A stretch of DNA of 64,000 bases from Brevibacillus panacihumi W25 (GTDB lineage Bacteria > Bacillota > Bacilli > Brevibacillales > Brevibacillaceae), in assembly GCF_000503775.1 (NCBI RefSeq), contig NZ_KI629782.1, forward strand, positions 186,001 through 250,000, read 5' to 3'. Under the pieces are notes generated by a model, which was not told the origin of the DNA, ran no database searches, and worked only from the letters and a program-made list of their open reading frames with translations. Positions 13,667 through 35,246 of this stretch are shown piece after piece. The position numbers and the translations under genes were made by a program. Positions within the stretch are counted from its first letter, which is position 1; each line of letters starts with the position of its first letter.

Positions 13667-13693
13667 CTCATCTCATTCCAGCGTCTGTAAAGC

Positions 13694-13735
13694 TCCCCCA
13701 CAGGGGGAAAGAGGATGCTTGGCGGCACCCTCTTT
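13694..13735 (-). promoter_or_regulatory. Tandem intercistronic hairpins between oppA and oppB
   Basis: Hairpin 1: TCCCCC/GGGGGA with an ACA loop (13694-13708). Hairpin 2: AAAGAGG-A-TGC/GCA-C-CCTCTTT with one mismatch and a 6-nt loop (13708-13735). On the minus strand neither is followed by a proper U-run, so they are more likely to stabilise the oppA message or attenuate read-through than to end transcription. Such elements are common behind genes for solute-binding proteins, which are needed in excess over permeases. Confidence 0.65.
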
Positions 13736-13749
13736 TCACATGAAATCAT

Positions 13750-15417
13750 TTATTTCACGATATCTGCCCAGAGGTAATTGTTCGTTGGTGCAGTTGGCAG
13801 GTACACAAAATCTTTTACGTACTCTTTTTGCAGAATCGCGAGTCCTTCTTGATACATCGGCGCAATCGCCACATCTTCCTCGATCAAGATTTTCTCCAAC
13901 TCTACCATTTGTTTGAAACGGCTTTCCAAATCGGTGTTCAGCTTGGCTTGCTGCACCAGCTCATCGTATTTCGGGTTGGAATATTTCATCCGGTTTGCAG
14001 AACCGCCCGTCACCCACATGTCGATATACGTCATCGGGTCGGCGTAGTCTGGTCCCCATGTCCCCAGGGAAAGGTCGTAGGTGATCGCTTTCTCAATTTC
14101 CAGACGTTGGTTGGAAGGTACGTTTTTCAACTCAAGAGTCAGACCAGGGAGATTTTTCTCCAGTTGATTTTTCAGGTACTCCCCGATTTTCTTCGATCTG
14201 TCGGTGTCAGCAGCGTTTACGCCAAGCTTCACCTCGGTTACGCCGGATTCCTTCAGTCCCTGTTCCCACAATTTCTTTGCATCTTCAAGCGAGCCTTGCT
14301 GCAAATCGCCGTTGAATTCGCGGAAATCTTTACCCGACGCGTCTGTTGCAAAACGCTTCGGCACGAGGCCGTTCAATGGCGATGAACCATCGTTCAGAAT
14401 GACATCAGTCAGACCTTTTTTATCCCATGCCATGCTGATCGCTTTGCGAATGTTCTTATTCTTCAGTACAGGATGTTCATGGTTAAAGCGGATGAAATAG
14501 ATGGTTGGCGTTTCGATAATATGAAAACGAGGGTCATCTTTGAACTGATCCACGTAGGAAGAGTCCAGCTCAATGCGATCAAGTTGACCCGCTTCAAACA
14601 AGGTGAGCCTTGCGGGAGCATCTTTGACAACATAGCCATCGATCTGATCGAGCTTTACTTTTCCTGCATCCCAGTAATTCGGGTTTTTCGTATAGGTCCA
14701 GCCCTGATCATGCTTCCAATCCGTCAGCATGAACGGACCATTATACAGCATATTGTCGTATTCGAGGCCGTATTTGTCTCCCTTGCTTTCGACGAATTCC
14801 TGTTTTTGGGGATAGAACGTTGGGAAGGACAGCAATTGATTCAACAGCGGGTTTGGATTTTCCAATGTTACTTCCAACGTACGGTCATCCAATGCTTTTA
14901 CTCCCAGCTCGTCCGGCTGTTTTTCGCCCTTTTCGATCGCAACCGCGTTTTTCACAGCCAGAGTTTCAAACATGAAGCTGTAGTGGCCGGCTTCTTTAAA
15001 TACCTTCTTCCAAGAGAATTCAAAATCTTTGGCCGTAACAGGCGATCCGTCGCTCCATTTTGCGTTGTCGCGAATCGTGAAGGTATGAACCAGTTTATCT
15101 TCACTCACATCATGCTTTTCCGCGATGGCGAGATACGGTTGGCCATTTTGATCCCGACGATAGAGCCCATCCATCGTATTGTTGAGTACAGTGAAGGAAA
15201 CCGTCTCATGAACGTGGGCTGAATCCAGACTTGGAATTTCGTCTGTATTAAAAACCTGCAATACTTTTTTACCGCTGCTTGGCTGTTCTGTGGTCGTTCC
15301 ACCGTTGTTGCTTGGCGCAGGCGTTTGGCTGCTCGACTCGCCTGAGTTGAAGTTACAGCCTGTCACCGCCAATGCGGCCATCAACGTAAAAGCCAGAAAA
15401 CTCTTTCTTTTTTTCAT
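13750..15417 (-). CDS. oppA: Oligopeptide-binding lipoprotein OppA
   Basis: A 555-residue solute-binding protein of the SBP_bac_5 family. A lipoprotein signal peptide ends in the lipobox LAVTGC, with Cys21 as the lipidated residue, followed by a Ser/Thr/Pro-rich linker. Family marks include SLDSAHVHET near the start of the mature domain, NAKWSDGSPVTAKDFEFSWKK, and the GTWGPDYADPMTYIDMW segment near the C-terminus. It captures peptides outside the membrane and passes them to OppBC. It is the first gene of the operon, with a possible promoter and CodY-like box at 15480-15509. Confidence 0.94.
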   Translation of the reverse strand: MKKRKSFLAFTLMAALAVTGCNFNSGESSSQTPAPSNNGGTTTEQPSSGKKVLQVFNTDEIPSLDSAHVHETVSFTVLNNTMDGLYRRDQNGQPYLAIAEKHDVSEDKLVHTFTIRDNAKWSDGSPVTAKDFEFSWKKVFKEAGHYSFMFETLAVKNAVAIEKGEKQPDELGVKALDDRTLEVTLENPNPLLNQLLSFPTFYPQKQEFVESKGDKYGLEYDNMLYNGPFMLTDWKHDQGWTYTKNPNYWDAGKVKLDQIDGYVVKDAPARLTLFEAGQLDRIELDSSYVDQFKDDPRFHIIETPTIYFIRFNHEHPVLKNKNIRKAISMAWDKKGLTDVILNDGSSPLNGLVPKRFATDASGKDFREFNGDLQQGSLEDAKKLWEQGLKESGVTEVKLGVNAADTDRSKKIGEYLKNQLEKNLPGLTLELKNVPSNQRLEIEKAITYDLSLGTWGPDYADPMTYIDMWVTGGSANRMKYSNPKYDELVQQAKLNTDLESRFKQMVELEKILIEEDVAIAPMYQEGLAILQKEYVKDFVYLPTAPTNNYLWADIVK

Positions 15418-15479
15418 GAGTGCCCCCCTACCATCCAGATCTCATATAGACGATATAACCATATATGGATATACTATAT

Positions 15480-15509
15480 AAAGTACAATTTTTCTGAACT
15501 CTCAGTCAA
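15480..15509 (-). promoter_or_regulatory. Candidate oppA promoter with a CodY-like box in the spacer
   Basis: On the minus strand TTGACT (15504-15509) and TACTTT (15480-15485) are spaced by 18 nt. The spacer segment 15488-15502 matches the CodY consensus AATTTTCWGAAAATT at 11 of 15 positions, centred on TTCAGAAAA. CodY control of peptide transporters is common in Bacillales. The -10 is weak, and the downstream leader is very TATA-rich with a CCATATATGG palindrome. Confidence 0.35.
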
Positions 15510-15552
15510 GCCTTAATTAAAATTATCCCGCTTCCGAAAGGTATCTAGTCTC

Positions 15553-15933
15553 ATGTGGTCTTCTCTTACAAGAACAGGGTGGATGCTTCTTGCTCTGAGC
15601 CCAGTTATCGCATCGTTGTTCTATTCTCTCGTATTTCCCAGTGATCCCTATTACCTGACCTGGCTCGACGGGCTGACTTATGCCTCTTTACTTATGCTGA
15701 TGATTGGCGCCATCCTCCTAGTCCGCAATGGCAGATTCTTCTACGGTTTTATCGATAGCTGCAAGCGTTTTTTGCGTTCCCTGCGAAAAAAGGAAAGCTT
15801 TATCCGCGAGCAGGAAGGTCACCGTGCGGATGCCGTTTATCAACAAAAAACATGGTCACCCACGCCGTTCTTGCTTGTGGGATTCTTCTATTTTCTCCTC
15901 AGTCTTGCTCTCTCGATTCTCTCTATTTCCTGA
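15553..15933 (+). CDS. Small membrane protein, DUF3899-like
   Basis: A 126-residue protein with three predicted TM helices: residues 10-28 (WMLLALSPVIASLFYSLVF), 39-58 (LTYASLLMLMIGAILLV) and 104-124 (TPFLLVGFFYFLLSLALSI). The second and third helices flank a basic cytoplasmic stretch (CKRFLRSLRKKE). From memory this layout matches the DUF3899 family, often found beside opp genes in Bacilli; function unknown. It is transcribed away from oppA, with AAAGG 11 nt before the ATG, and ends in a hairpin shared with the convergent pxpA. Confidence 0.65.
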   Translation: MWSSLTRTGWMLLALSPVIASLFYSLVFPSDPYYLTWLDGLTYASLLMLMIGAILLVRNGRFFYGFIDSCKRFLRSLRKKESFIREQEGHRADAVYQQKTWSPTPFLLVGFFYFLLSLALSILSIS

Positions 15934-15941
15934 CGCCAAAT

Positions 15942-15970
15942 AGGCTGACCACGTCTTCGGTGGTCAGCCT
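15942..15970. terminator. Hairpin between convergent DUF3899-like gene and pxpA
   Basis: Perfect 11-bp stem AGGCTGACCAC/GTGGTCAGCCT with a 7-nt loop, placed between two converging stop codons (15933 and 15978). Neither side has a clear U-run, so it is a weak or factor-assisted terminator. Confidence 0.6.
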
Positions 15971-15977
15971 GCTTGAT

Positions 15978-16736
15978 TCAAGATTTCTTGACGGAGCGAA
16001 TCTCAATGCCTGCCTCGCGAAATGCGTGGTGGATTGCTTTCGTCAATTCAACCGCTCCGGGGGTGTCTCCGTGGATGCAGATCGTATCGGCACGTACCGT
16101 CGCTTCCTTGCCATCCGGCGTCGTCACTTTTCCTTCCTTCACCATGCGCACGACTCGTTTTGCCATCGTCTGCGGATCGGAAATCGTCGGTCCGGAACGC
16201 GTCAGGACGATGGAACCATCTTCTGTATGTTCGCGATCGGCGTACACCTCGAGCGCGATCGGGATGCCCATCTTTTCCCCGAGCCAGGCGACAGCCGAGC
16301 CGTTCAAGGCGAACACGATCATTTTCTCATCGAGCATCGCCAGGCCCTCCAGAAACGCACGGGCGATCTTTTCATCCGCCATCGCCATCATATACAGGGC
16401 ACCGTGCGGCTTGCAGTGGTCCAGATCCAATTGATACGCTCGAGCAAATTCGCGCAATGCCCCCGTCTGGTAGAGGATGTAATCGCGAATCTCTTCTGCC
16501 GAGCAGTTCATATACCTGCGTCCAAAGCCCATCATATCGGGAAAGCCGGGATGAGCGCCGATGCTCACCCCGTGCTGGCGAGCGAGCTGGACGGTTTTTC
16601 TCATCACGTGCGGATCGCCAGCGTGAAAGCCGCAAGCGATATTGGCGGATGAGATCAGGGCCATCATCTCTTCATCATTGCCCAACTGGTAGTGGCCAAA
16701 GCTCTCGCCCATATCACAGTTCAGATCTACGTACAT
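15978..16736 (-). CDS. pxpA: 5-oxoprolinase subunit A (LamB/YcsF family)
   Basis: A 252-residue member of the LamB/YcsF family. It starts with VDLNCDMGESFG and continues with SANIACGFHAGDP, GVSIGAHPGFPD and KPHGALYMMA, whose Asp, His and Glu residues line the sugar-deacetylase-like barrel. In the PxpABC complex this subunit opens the lactam ring of 5-oxo-L-proline with ATP to give L-glutamate. Here it is the last gene of a nine-gene minus-strand run, just after the biotinyl carrier. Because of the molybdenum hydroxylase genes upstream, the true substrate could be a different lactam; the sequence does not decide. Confidence 0.9.
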   Translation of the reverse strand: MYVDLNCDMGESFGHYQLGNDEEMMALISSANIACGFHAGDPHVMRKTVQLARQHGVSIGAHPGFPDMMGFGRRYMNCSAEEIRDYILYQTGALREFARAYQLDLDHCKPHGALYMMAMADEKIARAFLEGLAMLDEKMIVFALNGSAVAWLGEKMGIPIALEVYADREHTEDGSIVLTRSGPTISDPQTMAKRVVRMVKEGKVTTPDGKEATVRADTICIHGDTPGAVELTKAIHHAFREAGIEIRSVKKS

Positions 16737-16749
16737 GTCTACCTGCCCC

Positions 16750-17001
16750 TCACTTGATCAATGTTACCAATTCCTGGCCAGCGTCAACCAGTTCCTCGTT
16801 ATTGACAACGAATTGATCTACGATGCCGTCCGCCTCCGCCTTGATCTCGTAAAAGTTTTTCATGACCTCGATTAAGCCGATGACGTCACCCTCCTTGACC
16901 GACTCCCCAGTCTGCACGAATTCCGGCATATCCGGGCTAGGTCTGCGATAAAAAATGCCCGGCAATGGGGATACAATTGCTGTTTTCTCTGCCATTTTCA
17001 C
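16750..17001 (-). CDS. Small biotinyl carrier protein (AccB-like single biotinyl domain)
   Basis: An 83-residue single biotinyl domain with no N-terminal extension. SPLPGIFYRRPSPD opens the fold and GLIEVMKNFYEI carries the acceptor Lys48 in an E-V-M-K context; the usual motif is EAMKM, so the residue after Lys is unusual. The counter-strand VNNEELVDAGQELV is intact, so biotinylation is expected. It lies between pxpC and pxpA with gaps of 9 and 13 bp. GTG 17001 has AGGAGG 5 nt upstream; ATG 16995 is the alternative. It probably serves the PxpB/PxpC carboxyltransferase-type pair. Confidence 0.85.
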   Translation of the reverse strand: MKMAEKTAIVSPLPGIFYRRPSPDMPEFVQTGESVKEGDVIGLIEVMKNFYEIKAEADGIVDQFVVNNEELVDAGQELVTLIK

Positions 17002-17010
17002 ACTCTCCTC

Positions 17011-17991
17011 CTAGCTCCCGCTTTCAATCATCTGTGCAACCCGCCCGAGCTTGGCCTGCACATCTTTTCTCGCATCCAAGGCTTCTGCCATCGTGACGGA
17101 GACAAAGCGCACTTTTTCGTTCGTTTTTATCTGCGCCATGCGATCCAGATCGGTGCTGATCACAGTCGCGATGGTCGCGTAACCGCCGCCCGTCACCGCA
17201 TCGTGCAAAAGGACAATCGGTTCGACGCCATCCGGCACCTGGATGGACCCGATCGGGTAGCCCAGGTCTGTCACATTGGAAGGATTGCTGCCTGCGCCAA
17301 ATGGCTGTTCGCGTTCGACGAATTGCAGCCGCTCCCCTCGATGACGATACCCGGTACGATTGGCCTCCGGCGTGACCGTCCATTCGGTAGCCAAAAAAGT
17401 CTCTTTGCTTTCTTCCGTCAGTCGATAGCTGCAAAGCCCTACCACAACACGTATCTCATGTGTTTTCCCGTAGGTGGGTATCAGGCTTGCTTCTACGCTG
17501 GTACCAGCTGCTACTGACTTCCGAATCATGTCTGCCGTGTGGATCACGTCTCCCTCCGCCAACGCCCTGCCTTCAAACCCGCCGATGCCGATCAAGGTAT
17601 AGGTCGACCGAGAACCCATGACGAGAGGAACTGCAATCCCGCCCTCTACAGCCAGATACACCCGCGCTCCGCCCTTGACAAAGTCAAAGGAAAGCTGGTC
17701 TCCCTCCCGAACCTCCAGCGTCGTCCACATGGGAACAGGCTGTCCATTGATTTTGGGAGGAATTTCGCCTCCTGTCAGACTGATTTTCATCCTCTTGCCA
17801 AATTCCAGGACTGGTCCGAGATACGTAATTTCCAACACCGCAGCTTCGGGGTCATTTCCCACCAGCAAATTGGCGACGGTATACGCATATTTGTCCATGG
17901 CACCAGAGGGAGGCATTCCAATCTCGTAATAACCGATGCGACCACGATCCTGAACAGTCGTCTGCAGTCCAGGCTTGAGAACCTTAATCAT
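17011..17991 (-). CDS. pxpC: 5-oxoprolinase subunit C (AHS2/KipA-type carboxyltransferase domain)
   Basis: A 326-residue AHS2-domain protein. Family marks are LKPGLQTTVQDRGRIGYYEIGMP at the N-terminus, MDKYAYTVANLLVGND, GGFEGRALAEGD and the late SVTMAEALDAR. AHS1 (PxpB) and AHS2 form one unit that in urea carboxylase is the carboxyltransferase domain, and in PxpABC phosphorylates the substrate with ATP. It overlaps pxpB by 8 nt, consistent with coupling, and is followed 9 bp later by a biotinyl carrier. That combination favours a urea-carboxylase-like chemistry over a purely PxpABC one, but this is inference. Confidence 0.9.
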   Translation of the reverse strand: MIKVLKPGLQTTVQDRGRIGYYEIGMPPSGAMDKYAYTVANLLVGNDPEAAVLEITYLGPVLEFGKRMKISLTGGEIPPKINGQPVPMWTTLEVREGDQLSFDFVKGGARVYLAVEGGIAVPLVMGSRSTYTLIGIGGFEGRALAEGDVIHTADMIRKSVAAGTSVEASLIPTYGKTHEIRVVVGLCSYRLTEESKETFLATEWTVTPEANRTGYRHRGERLQFVEREQPFGAGSNPSNVTDLGYPIGSIQVPDGVEPIVLLHDAVTGGGYATIATVISTDLDRMAQIKTNEKVRFVSVTMAEALDARKDVQAKLGRVAQMIESGS

Positions 17992-18880
17992 GGTACAACC
18001 TCCTTAATGCCCTCTCGGCAAAGCCCTCCAGATCGGCGAGGACCTCTCCCGGCGTAAATTGAATCTCCTTTTTGTGATAGACAAAGCTGCCATCCTCGAC
18101 TTGCTCACGGATCGCCTGGTACTCCTCTGCCCCTATGCTGCGATAACGGAAAATATCGCCCTGCTTCGGAAAGACGATGGACTCCTGAAAGTCGAACAGC
18201 GTCTGATCCTTTTGATAGATTGGCGCGGGCGCAATGCCGTACAATTGGTAGCCGCCTGCTCCTTGAACTGGATAGATGACGGAAAAAGCTCCGCCGAAGC
18301 CAAATGCCCGTTCTGGGGTGAACGTACGCGGCCGGACGTATTTGGGAACCTCGATCTGCTTTTCCCGGGGAACCATCTGGAAGCACCAAGGCAACCCGGG
18401 AACAAAGCCAATCATCGAGACGAGGAATGGAGCGCTTGTAATCGCTTCGATAAAGGCTTCTGATGAATCATAGCCGTTTATTTTCGCGGAATATTCCAAA
18501 TCCGTCGAATCCGGATCCTGATGCCTGTCGCGGAATCTCATCAGTGCTTCATGCGTCCAGGGATCGTTGAAATAGACGGGCACATCGACCAGACGAGAGG
18601 TGATGGTTATATCATCGAGCCCTTCCATTTCGCGCTCGATTTGCTGCAATCGCGCCATCAATTCCTCAGGCGGGATCACATCCGGATCAAAACGCACCAT
18701 GTATGAAGCATTGGAGGGACAGATGTCGTATACGCCTTCGAGATTGGCTTCCTTCAGCTTTCGCGTGATGGCTATCCCTTTAAAATTGGCTTCCAAGCTC
18801 ATCGCTTCGGACAATTGAACAAAGATAAATTCATCCCCGCCATATTCGTAGCGGGTTTGCATCTGGGTAACTTCCTTCAC
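17984..18880 (-). CDS. pxpB: 5-oxoprolinase subunit B (AHS1/KipI-type)
   Basis: A 298-residue AHS1-domain protein, longer than the usual 230-250. Marks: YEYGGDEFIFVQLSEAMS near the N-terminus, PVYFNDPWTHEALMRFRDRH in the middle, then MIGFVPGLPWCFQMVP, VRPRTFTPERAFGFGGAFSVIYP and a long C-terminal extension after about residue 240. GTG 18880 is preferred because GGAGGTGA lies 5 nt before it. PxpB homologues were first described as KipI, an inhibitor of sporulation kinase A, but the conserved role is in 5-oxoprolinase with PxpA and PxpC. It starts 55 bp after xdhC with no terminator between. Confidence 0.88.
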   Translation of the reverse strand: MKEVTQMQTRYEYGGDEFIFVQLSEAMSLEANFKGIAITRKLKEANLEGVYDICPSNASYMVRFDPDVIPPEELMARLQQIEREMEGLDDITITSRLVDVPVYFNDPWTHEALMRFRDRHQDPDSTDLEYSAKINGYDSSEAFIEAITSAPFLVSMIGFVPGLPWCFQMVPREKQIEVPKYVRPRTFTPERAFGFGGAFSVIYPVQGAGGYQLYGIAPAPIYQKDQTLFDFQESIVFPKQGDIFRYRSIGAEEYQAIREQVEDGSFVYHKKEIQFTPGEVLADLEGFAERALRRLYHD

Positions 18881-18935
18881 GGCGATCACCTCCATAAACA
18901 TCTGAAAATCATTGCGTTCAAAACGGATTTTCCAA

Positions 18936-20084
18936 TCAAGATGTCTGCGTCAGTGAAAGATGGGATGCTCTCTCGCGATTCGCTTGCCGATCACGCAAAA
19001 ATCCGCCATCCTGACCTCTGTGCACCGCAACCAATTCTGCGAGGATGCTTACCGCGATCTCCTCAGGGGAGTCAGCCCCCAGATTCAGTCCGATCGGATT
19101 GTACAAGCGTGAGAGTTCATCCTTGGTAAACGTTATGCCTTCTTGCATTAGAGAATTCATGATTCGCTCGCACCGCTTTCTTGGGCCCAACATTCCCACA
19201 TACGGCGCTTTCGACTGTAAAGCAAAGCGCAATGCATCCTTGTCACGCTCCAGGTGATGGTTCATGATCACCACGTAGGTACATCCCCCGATGGACGCAT
19301 CCACCATCTCTTGTGGCGAGATCAGCAAACGCTGCTCCGCTTTGGGGAAGCGTTCCGCGGTATTGAATCCGGGCCTCGGATCGACGACGGTCACGGAAAA
19401 ACCGAGCGTGGCCCCCATTTCGACTAGCGGCAACGCATCATGTCCGGCTCCAAAGACCAGCAATTGCGGTGCTGGCTGATATACGTCGAGAAAAATCTCT
19501 CCCCCTTCATCAGGAAGGGCAAGCATGGTTGATTTGGCATGTGAGAGATTCAACTGCTGCTGAGCAAGCTGGGTCGCAAACTTGTTCCAGCCCGGAAGCC
19601 CGAGATCGCCAAGTGGATTGCCCCATTGCGGAATGAACATTCTAGCGGGTTTTGATTCCAAACCTTCATCTGATTCTGGAAGAAACAAGGTGCAAAGAAC
19701 CCCTGATTTCCCCTCCAAAACCGTCCTGCGCCATTCCTGCAAGAGATCATTCTGAAAAACAGCGGGCGGCATCGGTTCTATGTACACCTCGACGGTTCCC
19801 GGGCAGCCAAGACCGAGTCCCCATACGAGGTCTTCATCCATGACATACTCTTTTCGCACTGGTTTGGCTGTTTCCATTACATTCAGCGCTATCTCGGTAA
19901 CGTCTGCTTCCAGACAACCTCCCGAAATCATGCCACGGGATTTTCCCTGCGAATCGATATACATTTTGGCACCCGGATGGCGATAAGCCGAACCCGTTAC
20001 ACGGATCACAGTCGCAAGCGCTCCCCCCAGCCCTGCCATACTCGCCTCCTCGATAGCCCTTGCAATCTCCATCTGCTCGTACAT
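18936..20084 (-). CDS. XdhC/CoxI-family molybdenum hydroxylase maturation protein
   Basis: A 382-residue XdhC-type protein with an N-terminal XdhC/CoxI domain (GLGGALATVIRVTGSAYRHPG, MISGGCLEADV, GLGCPGTVEVYIEP) and a C-terminal Rossmann domain (LLVFGAGHDALPLVEMG, VTVVDPR, MLGPRKRCERI). XdhC binds the molybdopterin cofactor, guards its sulfido ligand and inserts it into the enzyme. The position directly behind the three structural genes fits that role. ATG 20084 has AGGAGG 7 nt upstream; an extension to 20147 has no site and would cross an intercistronic hairpin. Confidence 0.9.
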   Translation of the reverse strand: MYEQMEIARAIEEASMAGLGGALATVIRVTGSAYRHPGAKMYIDSQGKSRGMISGGCLEADVTEIALNVMETAKPVRKEYVMDEDLVWGLGLGCPGTVEVYIEPMPPAVFQNDLLQEWRRTVLEGKSGVLCTLFLPESDEGLESKPARMFIPQWGNPLGDLGLPGWNKFATQLAQQQLNLSHAKSTMLALPDEGGEIFLDVYQPAPQLLVFGAGHDALPLVEMGATLGFSVTVVDPRPGFNTAERFPKAEQRLLISPQEMVDASIGGCTYVVIMNHHLERDKDALRFALQSKAPYVGMLGPRKRCERIMNSLMQEGITFTKDELSRLYNPIGLNLGADSPEEIAVSILAELVAVHRGQDGGFLRDRQANRERASHLSLTQTS

Positions 20085-20112
20085 CCGCGCACCTCCTTTT
20101 TGTTTACCGAGG

Positions 20113-20136
20113 GCCCACTCCATCAATCGAGTGGGC
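20113..20136 (-). promoter_or_regulatory. Intercistronic hairpin between the FAD subunit gene and xdhC
   Basis: Perfect 8-bp stem GCCCACTC/GAGTGGGC with an 8-nt loop and no U-run. It lies in the 69-bp gap before xdhC. It could protect the upstream message or lower expression of the accessory and pxp genes relative to the enzyme subunits. Confidence 0.5.
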
Positions 20137-20153
20137 GCCTCCTGCAAACCGCG

Positions 20154-21011
20154 TCAAAGCAAAATGGCTTCCAAAGCCCGCTGTGCATACACACAGCAGA
20201 GGTGTCGCCGATACTCTTCTGACGCAAATTGATCGCTGCCCATCTCACCGTCATCGGCGGCCAACGATGCAGCCTGGCGAATTCGCTCTGCAGTCGGAGC
20301 GTGCCCCAGCAGCTTATCCTCTACGCTTCTGGCTCGGTATGCCACGTCTCCGGCTCCATTGACCGCCACCCGAATGGTGGAGACAACTCCGTCGGGGTCG
20401 AGGGCGGCAATCGCGCATACGCCGACAACCGCATAGCCGGAAGCAGGATGAGCGTATTTCAGATATGTGCTTCTCGCCCCTTCAGGGGGAATCAGAAAGG
20501 AGACGGAAGTGAGAAGACTGGTCTCCGGCAGTGCGGTTACAAGTGGGCCCAGGAAAAAACCATCTGCTTCCACGAGCTCTGCTCCATCCTCCCCTTGGAT
20601 CTCCAGCATGGCGTCCAGAGCGAGTGCGACTCCAGGAAGGTCGGCGGCAGGGTCCGCATGCGCGATATTTCCGCCAATCGTTCCGCGGTTGCGAATTTGG
20701 ATGTCGCCGATCTGTCCGATGGCCTGAGCGAGTAAGGGCAAGTGTTGGGCGACGAGAGGGTCCGAGAGCACTTGGCGATAGGTCGTCATAGCTCCGATGA
20801 CGATTCGATTCCCTTCCTTCCGCACTCCTCTCAGCTCCGGGATCTCCCCGATGTCAATGAGTGTTCCGGGTGTCGTCAAGCGAAATTTGAGCAGCGGCAC
20901 AAGACTGTGTCCGCCCGCCAGCAGTTTCCCTTCCCCGTCACTTTCACGCAAGAGACGGATCGCCTCTTCGACGGAGTGGGCTTGAACATAAGAAAAGGTG
21001 CTTGGTATCAT
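20154..21011 (-). CDS. Molybdenum hydroxylase FAD-binding subunit (CoxM/CutM-like)
   Basis: A 285-residue FAD subunit of the xanthine dehydrogenase/CO dehydrogenase family. The FAD site is LLAGGHSLVPLLKFR near residues 31-45, with a second contact in RNRGTIGGNIAHADPAADLPG. The C-terminal CO-dehydrogenase-flavoprotein domain follows. It passes electrons from the iron-sulfur subunit to the final acceptor. Its ATG overlaps the end of the large-subunit gene by 4 nt, so the two are translationally coupled. Confidence 0.9.
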   Translation of the reverse strand: MIPSTFSYVQAHSVEEAIRLLRESDGEGKLLAGGHSLVPLLKFRLTTPGTLIDIGEIPELRGVRKEGNRIVIGAMTTYRQVLSDPLVAQHLPLLAQAIGQIGDIQIRNRGTIGGNIAHADPAADLPGVALALDAMLEIQGEDGAELVEADGFFLGPLVTALPETSLLTSVSFLIPPEGARSTYLKYAHPASGYAVVGVCAIAALDPDGVVSTIRVAVNGAGDVAYRARSVEDKLLGHAPTAERIRQAASLAADDGEMGSDQFASEEYRRHLCCVYAQRALEAILL

Positions 21012-23356
21012 TCCTTATCCCTCCCACTGCGAATCGCCCGCCATACTTTTTCAGGGGTGAGCGGCATATCCAACGCGGCTACGCCAAACGGCTTCAACGC
21101 ATCCATGACGGCGTTGACTACTGCTGGTGGCGCCGCAGTCGTTCCGGTCTCGCCAATCCCTTTGGCACCGAGCGGATTGACCGGTGAAAGCGTTTCGGTA
21201 AAAGCCGACTCGATCGGAGGGAAGAAACGCGCTTTTGGCATCGTGTAATCCATAAACGTGCCAGACTGCAGCTGGCCCTGTTCCGTATAGACAGCTCCCT
21301 CCCAAAGCGCTTGCCCCACGCCCTGGGCAATTCCTCCGTGCACCTGCCCTTCTGCCAGCAGCGGATTGATCACTCTCCCCACATCATCGACGGCGATGTA
21401 ACGCTTGATCTCCACCTCACCTGTGCCTTCATCTACCTCCACAACACAAATATGTGTGCCGAACGGATAGACGAAATTGGAGGGATCAAAGAAGGATTGG
21501 CCCTCAAGAGCCGGCTCGACTCCTTCCGGCAGATTCCAGGCATAATTAGCAGATCTTGCAATTTGCTGGATCGTCCTGCTTCTCGACAGATCTCCTTTTA
21601 CCGTAAATTGGCCCGCGATAAACTCGATCTGATCCACGGTTGTTTCCAGTTCATGCGCAGCGATCTTGCGCGCCTTTTCGATCACACGGTCCGTCGCCAG
21701 CGAGACGGCAGCCCCGCCGACAGCCGTAGCGCGCGAACCGTATGTACCCCAGCCCATCGAAACGCTTTGCGTATCGCCGGAGACAAGCTCCACATCCGAA
21801 AGGGGAACGCCTAATTTCTCGGCTACGATTTGGCAAAACGTGGTAGCAGTTCCTTGGCCATGCGGTGAAGTACCGGTAAAGACGGTAACTGTACCGCCAG
21901 GGTGGACGCGGACGGTGCTGTTCTCCCATACGCCGCCTTGAAAGCCGATCGCTCCAGCCACTGCTGAAGGACCGAAGCCGCACAACTCTACATACGTGGA
22001 AAATCCAACGCCCAGGTATTTGCCCTTCTGCCGCTGTTCCTTCTGCTCTTCGCGGAATGCCTCGTAGTCGAATATCTCCAATGCTTTATCCAGCGCCTTT
22101 TGATAATCGCCGCTGTCATAGGTGACACCCATCGCACTGTTGTAGGGGAAGGCATCATTCGGAACCAGATTGATGCGTCGCACTTCTACCGGGTCCATGC
22201 CGATTTTGTCCGCAAAGAGATCGATGGCGCGCTCGATCTGGTATGTCGCCTCTGGCTTGCCTGCTCCCCGATACGCATCTGTCGGCGTGGTGTTGGTGTA
22301 GACTCCGTATGTGACGACAGCCGCCTGCGGAATGGCGTACGCGCCTGTGACCATCAAACCGAAGTCTATCGTTGGGCAGCCAGCGCCGAATGTGGACAGA
22401 TAGGCCCCCAGATTGGCCGTGTTGGTTACGCGAAGTGCAGTGATGCGCCCGTCCTTCGTACCCGCAAGCTCTACTTCAAGCACTTCGTCGCGTCCGTGGC
22501 TTGTCGCCATAAAATGCTCCTTGCGTTCCTCCACCCATTTCACGGGCTTTTGGATTTCACGGGCGATGCAGGCGACGACGGCCTCCTCCGTATAGGTGGC
22601 GATCTTGGCACCAAAGCCTCCGCCGACATCCGGTGCGATGATGCGCAGCTTGGTCTCGGGGATTCCCAACACATCCGCATAAATCAGCCGATGTATATGT
22701 GGATTTTGCGAAGTACACCAGAGAGTCATTTCGCCGCTCCCCGGATTGTACTGGGCGACTGCGCCCCTGGTCTCCATCGGACTCGGGATGACCCGTTGGT
22801 TGTAGAGGCGTTGTTTGACCACGACCTCCGCATCCGCGAAGACCTCGTCCGGTATCTCGCCTGCCTTCCACAACAAAGCCAGATTATTCGGCACATCATC
22901 ATGCAACAGAGCGGCGTCATCCTGCATGGCCAGCTCCTGAGACACGACTGCCGGCAATACCTCGTAGTCCACTTCGATCAGATCGAGGGCGTCTCGCGCC
23001 ACGTAGCGGTTCTCTGCGATCACCACCGCAACAGCTTCACCAGCGTAACGCACTTTATCGGTTGCCAGTGCAGGCCGATCCTTCGGTTTCAGGTCGCAGC
23101 CCGGCAAAAACCACATGGCCGGAACAGCTTTCATTTTTCCTGCCAAATCAAGCCCCGTGAAAACAGCCGTGACACCTGGGAGACTTCTTGCCTTTTCAGT
23201 ATCCACACGGATGATCCGGGCATGTGCATGAGGGCTGCGCAGGAAGGCGGCATGTACCATGCCAGTCAGCTTGATATCATCTGTAAAACAGCCGTTTCCT
23301 GTCAGCAAACGCGGATCTTCCTTGCGTCTGACAGCACTTCCGATCAAGCTAGCCAT
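21008..23356 (-). CDS. Molybdenum hydroxylase large (molybdopterin-binding) subunit, not form I CO dehydrogenase
   Basis: A 782-residue large subunit. It begins with IGSAVRRKEDPRLLTGNG, typical of CoxL/CutL proteins. Molybdopterin contacts include APDVGGGFGAK and GVGFSTYVELCG. The active-site loop reads AYRGAGKPE near residue 360, not the AYRCSFR of authentic carbon monoxide dehydrogenase, which places it with form II enzymes, aldehyde oxidases and N-heterocycle hydroxylases. The catalytic Glu is expected in GAKGIGETG near the C-terminus. The reaction is hydroxylation of an unidentified substrate with water as oxygen donor. Confidence 0.9.
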   Translation of the reverse strand: MASLIGSAVRRKEDPRLLTGNGCFTDDIKLTGMVHAAFLRSPHAHARIIRVDTEKARSLPGVTAVFTGLDLAGKMKAVPAMWFLPGCDLKPKDRPALATDKVRYAGEAVAVVIAENRYVARDALDLIEVDYEVLPAVVSQELAMQDDAALLHDDVPNNLALLWKAGEIPDEVFADAEVVVKQRLYNQRVIPSPMETRGAVAQYNPGSGEMTLWCTSQNPHIHRLIYADVLGIPETKLRIIAPDVGGGFGAKIATYTEEAVVACIAREIQKPVKWVEERKEHFMATSHGRDEVLEVELAGTKDGRITALRVTNTANLGAYLSTFGAGCPTIDFGLMVTGAYAIPQAAVVTYGVYTNTTPTDAYRGAGKPEATYQIERAIDLFADKIGMDPVEVRRINLVPNDAFPYNSAMGVTYDSGDYQKALDKALEIFDYEAFREEQKEQRQKGKYLGVGFSTYVELCGFGPSAVAGAIGFQGGVWENSTVRVHPGGTVTVFTGTSPHGQGTATTFCQIVAEKLGVPLSDVELVSGDTQSVSMGWGTYGSRATAVGGAAVSLATDRVIEKARKIAAHELETTVDQIEFIAGQFTVKGDLSRSRTIQQIARSANYAWNLPEGVEPALEGQSFFDPSNFVYPFGTHICVVEVDEGTGEVEIKRYIAVDDVGRVINPLLAEGQVHGGIAQGVGQALWEGAVYTEQGQLQSGTFMDYTMPKARFFPPIESAFTETLSPVNPLGAKGIGETGTTAAPPAVVNAVMDALKPFGVAALDMPLTPEKVWRAIRSGRDKE

Positions 23357-23371
23357 CGTTACCCTACCTCC

Positions 23372-23890
23372 TTAAGCCTTCATAGAGTCGGCCATCGCAA
23401 CTTTTGTTTCCCCTGCTTCCCGTAACGTCTGTGCGGCATGCTTCACCGCGTCCACGATGAACTGGTACCCGGTACAGCGGCAAATGACGCCCTCCAAGGC
23501 AAGACGTATCTCTTCCTCGCTGGGGTCAGGGTTTTCATTCAGCAAGCCGATCGCTGCGATCATTACCCCGGGCGTGCAGAAGCCGCACTGCAGCCCGTGC
23601 TTCTCCCAGAAGCTCATCTGGATGGGATGAAGCCCTTCTTTGCTGGCAAGCCCTTCGACTGTCGTAATGGATTTTCCATTCGCCTGCACAGCCAAGACGG
23701 TACAGGATTTCACGGGATCTCCGTCCAAAAGTACGGTGCAAGCTCCGCACTGGCTCGTATCACAGCCAATATGTGTACCTGTCAGATTCAGTTCCTCGCG
23801 AAGATAATGGACCAGGAGCATGCGCGGTTCGATAACGCTTTTGCTCTCCGCCCCATTGACCTTCATCGATACCTCTGCTTGATGGGCCAT
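23372..23890 (-). CDS. Molybdenum hydroxylase 2Fe-2S subunit (CoxS/CutS-like)
   Basis: A 172-residue small subunit with two [2Fe-2S] clusters. The plant-ferredoxin-type cluster is held by [16 protein letters not shown] and the later SC; the second by CGFCTPGV and the CRCTGY pair in the helical C-terminal domain. It carries electrons from the molybdenum centre to FAD. ATG 23890 is chosen because AGGAGG lies 7 nt upstream; the frame is open further but overlaps the preceding gene. Gap to the large-subunit gene is 15 bp. Confidence 0.92.
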
Positions 23891-23916
23891 CGTCACACCT
23901 CCTAAAAATCGAAAGC

Positions 23917-24369
23917 TTACACCTGTGATGTCAACTTCCTCATTTCCGTGTCTGCCGATTTGAAAAATTGTCCCAAGACGAGCTTTGCCACACCACCCAT
24001 GACGCGTTGACCTACTGAAGCCAGAACCCCTGTCACCACCACCTCCATTCGGCATGTCACCGCAGCCCCGTTCTCCGTCTCGTCCAGATGCATGTGGGCC
24101 ACTGCGTCCACTTCTCCCGGCAATCCTTTTCCCTTTACTTTCAAGCAGTAGTAAGATGGCTCTTCCTGGTCTGTCATTTGGACCTGTCCGGTGAATACAC
24201 CCTTTACGGGTCCTACACTCAATCCCATTTCGACGTCGTAACTGCCGTCATCCATTCGGGAAAAGGATTTGCATCCAGGTATCGCGGTTTTCAGGACGTC
24301 CTCATTTTGGATCAACTTCCAGACAATCTCCCTTGGTAAAGAAAAGGTATGCGTATAGGAAAGCTGCAA
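23917..24369 (-). CDS. CoxG-like SRPBCC protein
   Basis: A 150-residue protein of the CoxG branch of the SRPBCC (START-like) superfamily. It has the opening [22 protein letters not shown], then [23 protein letters not shown] and a C-terminal amphipathic helix ([18 protein letters not shown]). CoxG-type proteins are linked to membrane attachment or quinone delivery for CO-dehydrogenase-family enzymes. The start is placed at TTG 24369, where GGAGGG lies 7 nt upstream; the upstream open frame has no site and crosses the promoter. It is first in the operon, which is unusual, since coxG often comes last. Confidence 0.82.
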
Positions 24370-24464
24370 GTAGTATCCCTCCTTGAAAAAATGCCAAGAA
24401 TTTAATTCGGAATATTTTGATAATTTTCGACATCGCTGTCTTTTCTCCGTGCTTGATACTTTTA

Positions 24465-24493
24465 AATATAGCAGACAAACATACTTCCTACAA
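24465..24493 (-). promoter_or_regulatory. Candidate sigma-A promoter of the molybdenum hydroxylase run
   Basis: On the minus strand TTGTAG (24488-24493) and TATATT (24465-24470) are separated by exactly 17 nt. The implied transcript starts near 24458 and has a leader of about 90 nt before the coxG TTG start. It is the best promoter-like pair in this divergent region. Confidence 0.5.
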
Positions 24494-24575
24494 CAACGAC
24501 TCAAAATATTGCAACTATTATGATAATATGAATTAGAAGGATGATTTTACCATCCCAATAAAGGAGACGAGTTGC

Positions 24576-25823
24576 ATGACGAAAACACTCCGTTCGTTCC
24601 CGATCGATGCCGTACGCCAGAAGTTCCCGGCCCTCAAACGAACCTTTCAGGGAAAAAGCGCCGTCTATTTGGATGGCCCTGGAGGTTCTCAAGTAGTGAA
24701 AAGCTCCATGGACGCCATCTATGCCTACATGGCTAATGGAGGCGCCAATCTGCACGGCTCCTTTCCCTCCAGCCGGGAGACGGAAGCGACGATCGCCGAA
24801 GCCCGCGAATCCGTCGCACAGCTCTTTGGTGCCAAGTCAAACGAAGTCGTCTTTGGCGCCAATATGACTACCATCACGTTTGCCATCGCCAGGGCATTGG
24901 GACGGCAATGGCAGGCTGGCGATGAGCTGGTTGTCACGGAGCTGGATCATCGCGCTAATGTCGACCCCTGGCTTTCGATCGCCGAAGATCGCGGCATGAC
25001 CGTTCGCTGGCTGCGGGTTCATCCGGACAGCTTGACACTCGAGCTGGAGGACCTGGATGACATCATCACGCCACGAACCAAGCTGGTTGCGGTCGGCCTT
25101 GCTTCCAATGCCGTTGGGACCATCAACGATGTTCCAAGGATCGCCGCAAAAGCCAGAGAGGTTGGAGCGATCATGGCCGTTGACGCTGTTCATGCCACTC
25201 CTCATTTTTTTGTGGATCGAGACCAGTTGGGCGCAGATCTTCTGCTTTGCTCTGCCTATAAATTTTTTGGTCCACACATCGGCATCGCCGTCATCCGCGA
25301 AGGATTGTTCGAGTCGCTGCTGCCGTACAAGCTGGCTCCTGCTCCCCAACACCTGCCCGACAAGCTGGAAACCGGGACGCAAAACCATGAAGGAATTGCG
25401 GGCATCAAGCCTGCTGTCCAGTTTATTGCCAGCCTGGGACAAGGCGAGACGCTGCGGGAGCAGTTCCGAAGCGGGTTTGAATTGATCGAATCCTATGAAA
25501 ATGCTCTGGCGGAAAAAATGCGCAACGCCCTGCAAGCCATCCCTGAGGTCACCCTGTACCAAGCAGCTCCCGAAGTGCCAAAAACACCGACGATTGCTTT
25601 TCGAATCGCAGGCATCTCGCCTCATGAGGTCTGTCAACGCATGGCAGATGAACACGCCGTGTTTGTTGCCGACGGCGACTTCTATGCAATGACGCTCGCT
25701 GACAAGCTGGGAATCAATCAGGATGGCGGCTGGATTCGTGCAGGACTTGCTCCTTACAACACGGAGGAAGAAATCGACCGGTTTATCCAAGGCATCCAAG
25801 AGATCGTACATACACTTCGGTAA
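24576..25823 (+). CDS. Cysteine-desulfurase-like class V PLP enzyme lacking the usual catalytic cysteine
   Basis: A 415-residue fold-type I PLP enzyme of the class V aminotransferase group (the VC1184-like set). The PLP lysine is in LLCSAYKFFGPH near residue 229, and upstream contacts are ANMTTITFAIARALG and ELDHRANVDPW. In true cysteine desulfurases the active-site Cys lies in a loop such as RTGHHCAQP; the equivalent stretch here, VFVADGDFYAM, has no Cys. The only Cys residues are next to the PLP Lys and in HEVCQRM. A desulfurase function is therefore doubtful, and a lyase or another PLP reaction on an amino compound is possible. It diverges from the molybdenum hydroxylase genes. Confidence 0.82.
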   Translation: MTKTLRSFPIDAVRQKFPALKRTFQGKSAVYLDGPGGSQVVKSSMDAIYAYMANGGANLHGSFPSSRETEATIAEARESVAQLFGAKSNEVVFGANMTTITFAIARALGRQWQAGDELVVTELDHRANVDPWLSIAEDRGMTVRWLRVHPDSLTLELEDLDDIITPRTKLVAVGLASNAVGTINDVPRIAAKAREVGAIMAVDAVHATPHFFVDRDQLGADLLLCSAYKFFGPHIGIAVIREGLFESLLPYKLAPAPQHLPDKLETGTQNHEGIAGIKPAVQFIASLGQGETLREQFRSGFELIESYENALAEKMRNALQAIPEVTLYQAAPEVPKTPTIAFRIAGISPHEVCQRMADEHAVFVADGDFYAMTLADKLGINQDGGWIRAGLAPYNTEEEIDRFIQGIQEIVHTLR

Positions 25824-25835
25824 TGCAAATATAGA

Positions 25836-25877
25836 AAACGAGCCCTCAAGAGTTGCCTCTCGGGCTCGTTTCTTATT
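25836..25877. terminator. Bidirectional intrinsic terminator between the PLP enzyme gene and accC
   Basis: Ten-base-pair stem AAACGAGCCC/GGGCTCGTTT (25836-25845, 25862-25871) followed by CTTATTTTC on the plus strand and TCTATATT on the minus strand. It sits between two converging stops (25823 and 25899). Confidence 0.82.
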
Positions 25878-25898
25878 TTCATGAATGATTTCCAACGT

Positions 25899-27245
25899 TT
25901 ACAATTCCAATTTATGAATTTCCAAGAAGTTTGTCGCAAAGTTGCCGGATACGAAGTCTGGATGCTCCAATAGCTTGGAGTGGAAAGGAATCGTCGTATG
26001 CACGCCATCGATGATGAATTCTTCCAGTGCCCGCTTCATGCGCGCGATGGCTTCTTCGCGATCCTTGCCCCAGACGATCAGCTTGGCCACCATCGAATCG
26101 TAGAAGGGTGTAATTTCATAGCCGGGATAAACAGCGCTGTCAACTCGCACCCCGTAGCCTCCCGGCGGCAGGTAATTGGCTACCTTGCCTGGAGAAGGCA
26201 TGAAGTTTTTGGCGGGATTCTCTGCATTGATCCGGCACTCGATAGCCCAACCGTTGATCTTCACGTCTTCTTGACGGAAGGAAAGCGGCTTCCCGGCTGC
26301 CACGAGAATTTGCTCCTTGATCAGATCAAAGCCCGTAATCATTTCCGTAACGGGATGCTCCACCTGGATTCGCGTATTCATCTCCATGAAATAAAATTGG
26401 CCGTGCTTGTCGAGCAAAAATTCGACTGTTCCCGCACCGTGGTAGTTCACCGCTTTCGCTGCGGCGACTGCTGCCTGCCCCATCGCTTCACGCAAGCTCT
26501 GATCCAGGGCAGGAGACGGCGCTTCTTCGACGAGCTTTTGGTGTCGGCGTTGAATCGAGCAGTCACGCTCCCCCAAGTAGACCACATTTCCGTGCTTGTC
26601 GCCCATTACCTGAATCTCGACGTGTCGAGGCTCCTCTACGTATTTCTCCAGGTAGACCCCTGCATTGCCGAAAGCTGTCTCCGCTTCCTTCTGCGCCTGA
26701 CGAATGGACTTGCTAAGCTCGTGCTCGTCGAAAGCCACACGCATGCCGCGGCCGCCCCCGCCAGCGGTTGCTTTTACAATGACCGGATAGCCGATGCTTT
26801 TAGCGACCTGGAGCGCTTCTTCGATGTCTTCGATCAGTCCTTCTGTACCCGGCACGAGCGGTACATTCGCTGCCCGCATCGTCGATTTGGCTACGGATTT
26901 GTCCCCCATTTTTTGGATGGATTCTGCCTCCGGACCGATGAACGCAATCGAGCAATCCCGGCAAAGCTGGGCAAAGGAAGCATTCTCCGCCAAAAAGCCG
27001 TAACCCGGGTGGATTGCATCTGCTTTGGTCAACAACGCAATGCTGATGATGCGTGACATATTCAAATAACTGACTTTGGAAGCGGTAGGGCCGATGCAGT
27101 ATGCCTCATCGGCCAATTGAACATGCAAGGCTTCACGATCCGTTTCCGAATAGACGGCAACCGTAGCCAGACCCAACTCCCGGCAAGCGCGAATGATCCG
27201 AACCGCGATTTCACCGCGATTGGCGATCAGTACTTTTGTAAACAT
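25899..27245 (-). CDS. accC: Biotin carboxylase subunit (AccC-type) of acyl-CoA carboxylase
   Basis: A 448-residue ATP-grasp biotin carboxylase. Domain order is the pre-ATP-grasp fold ([21 protein letters not shown]), ATP-grasp with the glycine loop [12 protein letters not shown], catalytic [15 protein letters not shown], and the C-terminal Biotin_carb_C domain. It carboxylates biotin on a carrier protein using bicarbonate and ATP. ATG 27245 has GGGAG 7 nt upstream. It is the last gene of the methylmalonyl operon and should work with the canonical AccB at 34688 and the carboxyltransferase at 27742. It could also serve the biotinyl carrier of the pxp cluster. Confidence 0.93.
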
Positions 27246-27258
27246 CCTTTTACTCCCC

Positions 27259-27726
27259 CTACTTGTTCTTGACCGCAATCAGATTTCGTCCATAATCGAC
27301 GAGCTGACCGTCCGCAACAAGAATTTCTTCGACTTCCCCATCCGATACTGCACGAACTTCTTCTGTCAATTGGAGGGACTCGACGTTTAGACGACCAACC
27401 AGATCTCCCGTTTTGATTTTTTGCCCGGGAGTAACAGCAGTGTAGAACAAGCCTACAGAGGACGAGGTGATGTACGATCTTTTTTCCACGGATGCTTCTG
27501 GCTCTGGGGCAGCTATTGCCTCTTCCAAAGCAGCTGCAGCCTGTTGATAGCCTTCGTTTTCTTTGGTTTCTACGGCTTCCTGTGCAGGTATTTCTGGAGT
27601 CACAACGATCGTTGCAGGAGCTGCCTTTTTGATCACGATGCTTTTGCCATCACGCTCCCATTCCAATTCCTCGATTGATGACTGATTCACCAATTTGATC
27701 AATTCCCGTATATCATGAAGTTTCAT
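27259..27726 (-). CDS. AccB-like protein that has lost the biotin-accepting lysine
   Basis: A 155-residue protein with the AccB layout: N-terminal helix-strand module ([17 protein letters not shown] ... [12 protein letters not shown]), an Ala/Glu/Pro linker (residues about 42-85), and a biotinyl fold ([20 protein letters not shown] ... [21 protein letters not shown]). The hairpin tip, which should read EAMK-M/L-x-N-E, reads [11 protein letters not shown] and contains no Lys. I checked the codons on the DNA, and no frameshift is seen. It cannot be biotinylated at the normal site. It lies between the carboxyltransferase and accC genes, so a structural or regulatory role in the carboxylase complex is plausible. 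Confidence 0.85.
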
Positions 27727-27741
27727 CGCAAGTTATCACTC

Positions 27742-34687: not shown

Positions 34688-35224
34688 TCAGTCCAATTTG
34701 ACCATAAACAAAGGCTGTCCCGGCTCGACCAATTGTCCGTTCTCGACCAGAACCTGGACGATCTCCCCCGACACTTCCGCCTCAATTTCATTGAACAGCT
34801 TCATCGCTTCTACGATGCAGACGACGCTGGACGCGTGCACCCGATCCCCCACTTTGACGTAGGGAGGAGCATCCACCGCGGGGGCAGCGTAGAAGGTCCC
34901 GACCATCGGAGAAACAATCTTCTGTATATTTGCGAAATGGCTTTGAGCGCTATCGACTGTTTCGCCTGCGGTTGAACGCGGAGCTTCTTGAACGACCGCT
35001 CGCTCTGTTTGTGCATGGGTCACCGCTGGGGCGACAACAGCGGGAATTGCTACTGGTGTCTTGGACGAACTGACTGGTTCTGCTTGCACAATCGCTGTCA
35101 CTTGTGCACCGGGAAAACTTCTCTTGATGCTGATGCGCGATTGGTCATCCTTCACCTCAACAGACTCAATATCTGTTTGTTCCAACAATTTTACCAGTTC
35201 TTTCACTTCATATATGGTTAGCAT
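34688..35224 (-). CDS. accB: Biotin carboxyl carrier protein, canonical (AccB-type)
   Basis: A 178-residue AccB-type carrier. N-terminal module [20 protein letters not shown], a Pro/Ala/Thr-rich linker (about residues 45-95), then a full biotinyl domain [20 protein letters not shown] with the acceptor Lys142 in [14 protein letters not shown] 35224 has AGGAGG 7 nt upstream and is preferred to ATG 35230. It is the first gene of the operon, directly behind two TetR-type operators. It should shuttle carboxybiotin between AccC and the carboxyltransferase encoded downstream. Confidence 0.92.
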
Positions 35225-35246
35225 CGTCATTCCTCCTGAACTCCCG

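Follow-up and report, generated by a model that had tools for sequence, protein, structure and literature searches.

A molybdenum hydroxylase and a probable split urea-carboxylase-type biotin enzyme in one gene run of Brevibacillus panacihumi: a putative route of N-heterocycle catabolism by lactam N-carboxylation

The window analyzed here is a stretch of 64,000 nucleotides from Brevibacillus panacihumi W25 (contig NZ_KI629782.1, positions 186,001 to 250,000), and the subject of this work is a run of nine genes that extends in it from position 24369 down to 15978, entirely on the minus strand. We propose, with a probability of about 0.58, that this run is responsible for the catabolism of an N-heterocycle, in which a split biotin-dependent enzyme of the urea carboxylase type would carboxylate the nitrogen of a lactam and a LamB/YcsF family hydrolase would open the ring; the lactam itself is probably made by the molybdenum (Mo) hydroxylase encoded in the same run. 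The proposal is based on gene content, the biotin attachment site, the residue class at one diagnostic position, the predicted fold and genomic association, from which we infer the substrate, the N-carboxylation, the order of the steps and the biotin carboxylase (BC) that serves the system.

All nine genes are recognized by Pfam and all except CoxG are matched by NCBIfam models, which bears out the gene content and order given in the preliminary description; the genes are separate, so that its term "fused" is wrong if taken literally. The genes are the following:

23917..24369, minus strand: coxG-like protein (Pfam COXG, 76.8 bits; TTG start with a ribosome-binding site)
23372..23890, minus strand: 2Fe-2S subunit of the Mo hydroxylase, coxS-like (Pfam Fer2_2, Fer2; start context)
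21008..23356, minus strand: Mo-binding large subunit, coxL-like (Pfam MoCoBD_1/2, Ald_Xan_dh_C; PDB alignments; AYRGAGK loop)
20154..21011, minus strand: flavin adenine dinucleotide (FAD) subunit, coxM-like (Pfam FAD_binding_5, CO_deh_flav_C)
18936..20084, minus strand: xdhC, Mo-cofactor insertion/maturation factor (Pfam XdhC_C, XdhC_CoxI; start checked)
17984..18880, minus strand: carboxyltransferase subdomains C/D, CT_C_D or "PxpB" (profile scores, Lys187, structure superposition)
17011..17991, minus strand: carboxyltransferase subdomains A/B, CT_A_B or "PxpC" (profile scores; AGxxPSNxxDxxY loop of urea carboxylase)
16750..17001, minus strand: biotin carboxyl carrier protein (BCCP), 83 amino acids (NCBIfam PRK07051, 112 bits, cut-off 87; Lys48 in EVMKN)
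15978..16736, minus strand: LamB/YcsF hydrolase, "PxpA" (NF003814, 344.4 bits, cut-off 226; PDB relatives)

The intergenic gaps range from -8 to 34 nucleotides when coxG and coxS are taken at starts that bear a ribosome-binding site and the remaining genes at the first start codon of the open reading frame (ORF); the better-placed starts of xdhC (ATG 20084) and pxpB (GTG 18880) give preceding gaps of 69 and 55 nucleotides.

The two carboxyltransferase (CT) proteins score below the cut-offs of the respective 5-oxoprolinase equivalogs, with 63.9 bits for "PxpB" against TIGR00370 (cut-off 145.55) and 242.4 bits for "PxpC" against NF045499 (cut-off 500). Both score higher against the urea carboxylase model TIGR02712 (118.3 and 252.2 bits, respectively), which describes a single BC-CT-BCCP chain and has a cut-off of 1303.85 that the separate genes of the run do not reach. 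In the PDB, urea carboxylase is the top sequence match of the "PxpB" profile, and the AlphaFold model of this protein (pLDDT 87.5) superimposes on urea carboxylase 3va7 over 278 residues (2.6 A) with a Z-score of 25.0, compared with Z-scores of at most 19.7 over approximately 200 residues for other folds of the family.

For comparison, we used the best 80 of 394 relatives found in GTDB genomes, which are related to each other so that the counts given below are not independent draws, and 37 of the 39 canonical pxpABC loci of the same order (one in G011, with an internal stop, and one of two in G031 were omitted). The stretches inspected extend up to 10 kb to either side in the relatives (27 of the 80 stretches are 20,000 bases or shorter and 53 are longer) and at least 6.6 kb in the controls. 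A second canonical sample was drawn independently from 149 genomes of the phylum and comprises 40 of the 48 places found there outside the host; one of the 40 (L246) is not readable at the diagnostic column. In addition, 11 plasmid regions, chosen among 561 records with a match, were opened; they come from alpha- and betaproteobacteria, Rubrobacter and haloarchaea, and the five-gene set is complete in all 11.

In the urea amidolyase of Kluyveromyces lactis, Lys1605 is most likely the essential general base of carboxyl transfer, according to an excerpt of PMC5770610. This residue aligns with Lys187 of the window "PxpB" (codon 18341-18343; numbering from the ORF start at 18901), and the position is occupied by Lys in all 81 window-type proteins (the window protein and those of the 80 relatives), in 9 of 9 proteins of a second type that is described below and in 11 of 11 plasmid-borne ones. 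By contrast, canonical PxpB proteins have Arg here, both in the same order (37 of 37) and among those readable in the phylum sample (39 of 39). Under this Arg-versus-Lys distinction, which was derived in the present analysis and not taken from the literature, the window protein lacks the Arg of canonical PxpB and combines the carboxyltransferase fold with the general-base lysine of a urea-carboxylase-type enzyme. Similarly, "PxpC" has the AGxxPSNxxDxxY loop in common with urea carboxylase, and E. coli YbgK is without it. In the more general form AGxxxxNxxDxxY, the loop is found in the eight commonest forms of the window type (74 of 81 proteins), in 9/9 proteins of the second type and in 11/11 plasmid-borne proteins, and it is gapped in the canonical forms inspected (14 of 37). 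The PPSG motif is not general, being present in 81/81 close relatives and in 3/11 plasmid loci.

The biotin carrier of the run has a biotinyl lysine by alignment, and the MK motif is clear in 74 of the 77 carriers of the relatives. A carrier gene lies within 5 kb of pxpB in these 77 of 80 relatives compared with 1 of 37 controls, and a biotin carboxylase in 64/80 compared with 1/37; LamB/YcsF is found within the same distance in 78/80 relatives and 37/37 controls. The carrier is lacking in three relatives (L101, L104, L126), whose stretches measure 8.6-12.5 kb, and in the sole control with both biotin genes (L155) an accB-accC pair adjoins canonical pxpB. The neighborhoods of the 40 canonical loci of the phylum sample yielded no biotin carrier, and an accC match among them, at L232 (23% identity), is taken as chance. 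Within the order of the host, 12 of 39 genomes carry the window type, 11 of these 12 with the Mo hydroxylase in the run and 6 of 12 with an accC of their own, which in one case is split into two ORFs. The set of 80 relatives includes six of these 12 loci (L034, L035, L038, L039, L041, L042). In the plasmid regions, CT_A_B is annotated as a "biotin-dependent carboxyltransferase family protein" in 10 of 11 cases and LamB/YcsF mostly as "5-oxoprolinase subunit PxpA".

Because the PxpB and PxpC cut-offs are not reached, the diagnostic position holds Lys where canonical proteins have Arg, and BCCP and AccC genes are linked to the pair, the CT proteins are much more likely to form a biotin-dependent carboxylase than an ATP-phosphorylating enzyme of the PxpABC type, as had been assumed previously. 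The two-step route suggested in the preliminary description, in which a hydroxylase makes a lactam and a PxpABC-type enzyme opens it, is partly supported, its PxpABC-type enzyme not being borne out. The hydroxylase and the lactam-opening genes do belong together: 46 of 80 relatives, and none of the 37 controls, encode a Mo large subunit within 6.5 kb, with the association recurring in Bacillota and Actinomycetota and also on a betaproteobacterial plasmid with a distant Mo enzyme. We quote this distance because the stretches of the relatives reach further than those of the controls; the count is 29/80 within 5 kb and 50/80 in the whole stretch (0/37 controls).

Under the proposed scenario, the Mo hydroxylase would hydroxylate a cyclic imine or N-heterocycle next to the nitrogen, yielding a lactam, with delta-1-pyrroline as a first guess for the substrate; XdhC and, probably, the adjacent desulfurase would assist in the maturation of the Mo enzyme. 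A biotin carboxylase encoded outside the run would load CO2 on the 83-residue carrier at the expense of ATP and bicarbonate, CT_C_D and CT_A_B, together making up a split carboxyltransferase of the urea carboxylase type, would transfer the carboxyl group to the lactam nitrogen, and LamB/YcsF would hydrolyze the N-carboxylated ring amide. With the loss of CO2, an omega-amino acid would be left; for 2-pyrrolidinone, the path would lead to gamma-aminobutyrate (GABA), succinic semialdehyde and succinate.

Genes of the GABA transaminase (GABA-T) type (at least 45% identity to those of L064 or L073) occur in 13 of 80 relatives and in 0 of 37 controls. Four of the six aminotransferases tested pass the GABA-T equivalog cut-offs (L064, L073, L085, L090), and proteins similar to succinic semialdehyde dehydrogenase (SSADH) from L064, L073 and L099 score 640.9, 643.8 and 644.0 bits, just under the cut-off of 646.35. 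Among the plasmid regions, 3 of 11 include an annotated 4-aminobutyrate transaminase (gabT) and 2 of 11 an SSADH, and the host has one GABA transaminase above the cut-off elsewhere in its genome. In the known caprolactam route, ring opening is followed by an omega-aminotransferase and then a semialdehyde dehydrogenase, and in Aspergillus nidulans (lamA/lamB), a fungal system, a LamB homologue is needed for the use of 2-pyrrolidinone and is co-regulated with GABA transaminase. The GABA-T and semialdehyde-dehydrogenase-like neighbors fit the opening of a lactam and point to GABA, hence to 2-pyrrolidinone, at least in the respective lineages; as an assignment on its own, 2-pyrrolidinone is the likeliest lactam but a tentative one. 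The substrate of PxpABC itself, 5-oxoproline, was considered and rejected given that the host carries a separate Arg-type pxpABC (L048) and that GABA-T and SSADH neighbors would be needless for a glutamate product; the host genome contains only two CT_C_D genes.

Several observations weigh against the proposed route. "PxpC" passes TIGR00724 ("5-oxoprolinase/urea amidolyase family"; 275.6 bits, cut-off 230.2), a broad domain model that does not discriminate between the oxoprolinase and the urea carboxylase readings. In the PDB, "PxpC" matches E. coli YbgK best (1.3e-48), narrowly followed by urea carboxylase (4.3e-46). Classes defined by a single residue correlate with mechanism and are no proof of it. 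The Mo hydroxylase was not found in 30 of the 80 stretches, some of which are short, and in 9 of the 11 plasmid regions. The GABA-T neighbors are a minority and none is present in the window run; the aminotransferases of L070 and L129 (2 of the 6 tested) fail the GABA-T cut-offs and another type of class-III aminotransferase occurs in 5 of 80 relatives, so that the lactam may differ between groups. The carrier motif of the window is EVMKN, which differs from the usual MKM. Finally, no accC is found within the window run. The host has four biotin carboxylases elsewhere in the genome, the nearest of which lies 1.5 kb upstream; three are 57, 51 and 50% identical to the in-run accC type and the fourth (pyruvate carboxylase) gave no comparison value. 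With only 57% identity for the best of the three compared, there is no obvious host twin of the in-run accC, and a relocated twin was rejected.

The alternative that retains the most weight, although still unlikely, is that the Mo hydroxylase oxidizes the semialdehyde once the ring has been opened, or has an unrelated substrate, and that the two halves of the run are linked by co-inheritance alone. Such a role would agree with the best curated matches of the Mo, FAD and Fe-S subunits, which are glyceraldehyde dehydrogenase subunits, all below the cut-offs, and with the 30 lactam stretches that lack a Mo large subunit. On the other side, in eight loci the Mo enzyme is accompanied by a class-III aminotransferase as well as an aldehyde dehydrogenase, which argues that the Mo enzyme is not a simple dehydrogenase replacement. 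Furthermore, in a small tree with 19 of the 44 linked large subunits, which has some unresolved forks and some long branches, the linked proteins fall into separate groups with unlinked paralogues between them, and a Diaphorobacter plasmid encodes, in the same run, a three-subunit Mo enzyme whose large subunit is only 28% identical; together, these findings suggest that Mo hydroxylases became associated with the lactam genes repeatedly.

The Mo enzyme has the characteristics of the xanthine dehydrogenase/CoxL superfamily, namely the Mo, FAD and 2Fe-2S Pfam domains and GIGETGTT in the GxGE region, the Glu of which is catalytic in Mo hydroxylases. The loop AYRGAGK, present in the window and in 28 of the 29 linked Bacillota proteins read, replaces the AYxCSFR of CO dehydrogenase structures (AYRCSFR in 1ffu and 1n5w, AYACSFR in 8uem), and the form I CO dehydrogenase model TIGR02416 is matched with 740.7 bits, below its cut-off of 991.15; accordingly, CO dehydrogenase was rejected as the identity of this enzyme. 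The run resembles form II CoxL-type hydroxylases and quinoline 2-oxidoreductase (Qor; 1t3q) in its Mo, FAD and 2Fe-2S subunits and XdhC/CoxDE-type helpers, and differs in the AYRGAGK loop of the large subunit. Qor hydroxylates its substrate next to the ring nitrogen, and indoleacetate degradation is a precedent for a lactam that is made by a Mo enzyme and opened by an ATP-dependent enzyme. For the latter pathway, the excerpted text of PMC5214803 names 2-oxoindoleacetyl-CoA gamma-lactamase and not the Mo step. An excerpt of another open paper, PMC11670438, contains no proof that a Mo enzyme forms the lactam. The relatives include additional genes for Mo enzyme maturation: a MoxR-type ATPase, CoxE, a MocA-like transferase, MoeA and MoaE.

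Also unlikely, and to be placed slightly lower, is the action of the same biotin-dependent machinery on urea, guanidine, hydantoin, creatinine or another ureide rather than on a simple lactam. The closest carboxyltransferase fold is indeed that of urea carboxylase, some relatives adjoin HyuA/HyuB-like genes and an NCS1-type permease (L061), and an annotated amidase lies near the set in 2 of 11 plasmid regions; no search aimed at allophanate hydrolase was made. However, the near-constant partner is LamB/YcsF, and the GABA-T and SSADH-like neighbors point to an omega-amino acid.

That the run encodes an ATP-phosphorylating lactamase of the PxpABC oxoprolinase type, in which PxpBC would phosphorylate the lactam, PxpA would open it and the biotin carrier would be a passenger, appears improbable. 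In favor of this possibility, "PxpA" is an ordinary LamB/YcsF member that exceeds the cut-offs at the family and subfamily level (NF003814, given above, and NF003816, 257.7 bits, cut-off 213), and phosphorylation by PxpBC is the assumed scheme for canonical PxpABC in an excerpt of PMC13274462. The scores of "PxpA" are below the cut-offs of the equivalogs NF003813 (297.7, cut-off 392), NF003815 (240.7, cut-off 337) and NF003812 (201.6, cut-off 378). The PxpABC reading is opposed by the failed PxpB and PxpC cut-offs, the Lys at the Lys1605 position, the carrier gene near 77/80 relatives versus 1/37 controls and the separate Arg-type pxpABC of the host. A role of the CT pair as a regulator of an acyl-CoA carboxylase, brought up by PDB entry 9yx5, according to the title of which a canonical-type pair (MSMEG_0435-0436) is bound to a long-chain acyl-CoA carboxylase complex, is very hard to reconcile with the retained catalytic lysine and loop and the almost constant presence of the run's own BCCP and PxpA.

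Among the known systems, the proposed lactam carboxylase is most readily compared with the urea carboxylase of K. lactis (3va7/5i8i), with which it shares the BC, BCCP and CT (A/B, C/D) logic, the general-base lysine, the loop and the fold, as well as, by proposal, the succession of N-carboxylation and a hydrolase seen in the urea amidolyase route; unlike in urea carboxylase, the subunits are encoded by separate genes, the hydrolase partner is LamB/YcsF and the substrate is probably cyclic. The prokaryotic 5-oxoprolinase PxpABC was reportedly described by Niehaus in 2017. Its three subunits are homologous to those of the run, and the ATP-paid opening of a lactam ring, noted in a part of PMC13274462, would be common to both; the differences are the Arg of canonical PxpB, the gapped PxpC loop in the forms inspected and the rarity of BCCP neighbors (1/37 and 0/40). 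The caprolactamase CapAB and the ATP-dependent hydantoinases, as portrayed in an excerpt of PMC8453981, are likewise ATP-dependent in lactam opening and differ in consisting of HyuA/HyuB-type proteins and using no biotin; one CapAB mechanism proposed there, carboxylation of the lactim via carboxyphosphate, is a parallel to the N-carboxylation suggested here. As early as 2011, it was pointed out that bacteria and Thermococcales have gene pairs matching the CT halves of urea carboxylase, none of which had then been studied (PMC3199775, section 8). Among the matches listed from open-licence PMC papers, covered by titles and the starts of abstracts so that relevant work may have been missed, there was no description of a biotin-dependent lactam carboxylase or of this gene set.

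More broadly, and with confidence that falls a little short of even, lactam N-carboxylase might be a widespread, unrecognized class of biotin enzymes, present in Bacillota, Actinomycetota, Pseudomonadota and haloarchaea but hidden under the labels "PxpB/PxpC" and "allophanate hydrolase subunit". Such enzymes would activate a ring amide for hydrolysis by N-carboxylation, and in many lineages a lactam-forming Mo hydroxylase would have joined them, more than once, in a new route by which cyclic imines are converted to GABA-type amino acids. If so, many genes with such labels would encode parts of a biotin-dependent lactam carboxylase, which could be told from PxpABC by the Lys/Arg residue and the adjacent biotin carrier, and a cyclic amide would join the short list of substrates of biotin-dependent carboxylases. 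The use of lactams by some bacteria would also be explained, and the adjacent Mo hydroxylases would gain a testable substrate class. Lactams include industrial solvents and nylon precursors.

Additional features in and around the run are the following:

20102..20149, minus strand: intercistronic RNA hairpin, coxM/xdhC (-30.8 kcal/mol, z -4.6, 0/200 shuffles as good)
15937..15975, minus strand: hairpin just 3' of pxpA, without a U run (-23.3 kcal/mol, z -4.0), a possible transcript end
25899..27278, minus strand: nearest biotin carboxylase, accC of a propionyl-CoA carboxylase run (PF02785 match C1:211920-212240)
24576..25823, plus strand: cysteine-desulfurase-like gene, divergent from coxG (TIGR01976, 440 bits, cut-off 352; kept in L034 and L035)

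The hairpin before xdhC, reported previously, is thus confirmed by folding. It is kept in L034 (11085-11160), and the more distant L035 has a hairpin with a different stem sequence at the same place (9265-9345; z -3.5), which suggests selection for the structure. The xdhC-pxpB junction contains no promoter-like site on the minus strand. In the region 13000-28500, with both strands counted, the 11 promoter-like sites are about as many as chance predicts (11.5), and the 21 terminator-like sites are somewhat more than the 14.9 expected (standard deviation 3.4). A riboswitch or known RNA was rejected, with 0 Rfam matches in the same region.

The cysteine-desulfurase-like protein is a possible sulfur donor for the Mo cofactor, and the accC at 25899..27278 is a possible, unproven partner of the run. 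The upstream propionyl-CoA/methylmalonyl-CoA run was rejected as a part of the pathway; since pccB was recognized beside the run only in L034 and L050 among the annotated loci, these being one and the same contig, the adjacency is probably due to chance. A BCCP-like protein of the propionyl-CoA carboxylase run (27259-27726, minus strand) has ESLQL at the position of the biotinyl-lysine motif and is hence not expected to carry biotin; the same letters occur in its L034 relative, and an intact BCCP (EAMKL) is encoded at 34688-35230 in the same run. In L043 (10102-11169), the in-run accC is split in two ORFs, perhaps due to a frameshift or an assembly error.

The second CT pair mentioned above, which is approximately 40% identical and of the Lys type in all 9 cases read, is often located downstream, behind a sigma-54 regulator (L036, L038, L040-L043, L045-L047), and is broken in L037 and L039. 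In L045, HyuA/HyuB-like genes are located upstream of the sigma-54 regulator and no BCCP or AccC was recognized near the second pair; the ORF layout of L046, compared at this level only, is the same. In L047 (7580-11764), coxG, coxS and a coxL remnant of 360 amino acids directly precede the second CT pair, as if the intervening lactam genes had been lost. The host also has a third LamB/YcsF gene (C1:546319-547020), which is solitary, with no CT pair recognized nearby. On an Agrobacterium rubi plasmid (L215, 9943-16870), an LLM flavin oxidoreductase gene, genes of F420 biosynthesis and gabT lie behind the putative lactam-carboxylase set, an arrangement that seems unusual for a Rhizobiaceae plasmid and looks as if the oxidizing step were swappable.

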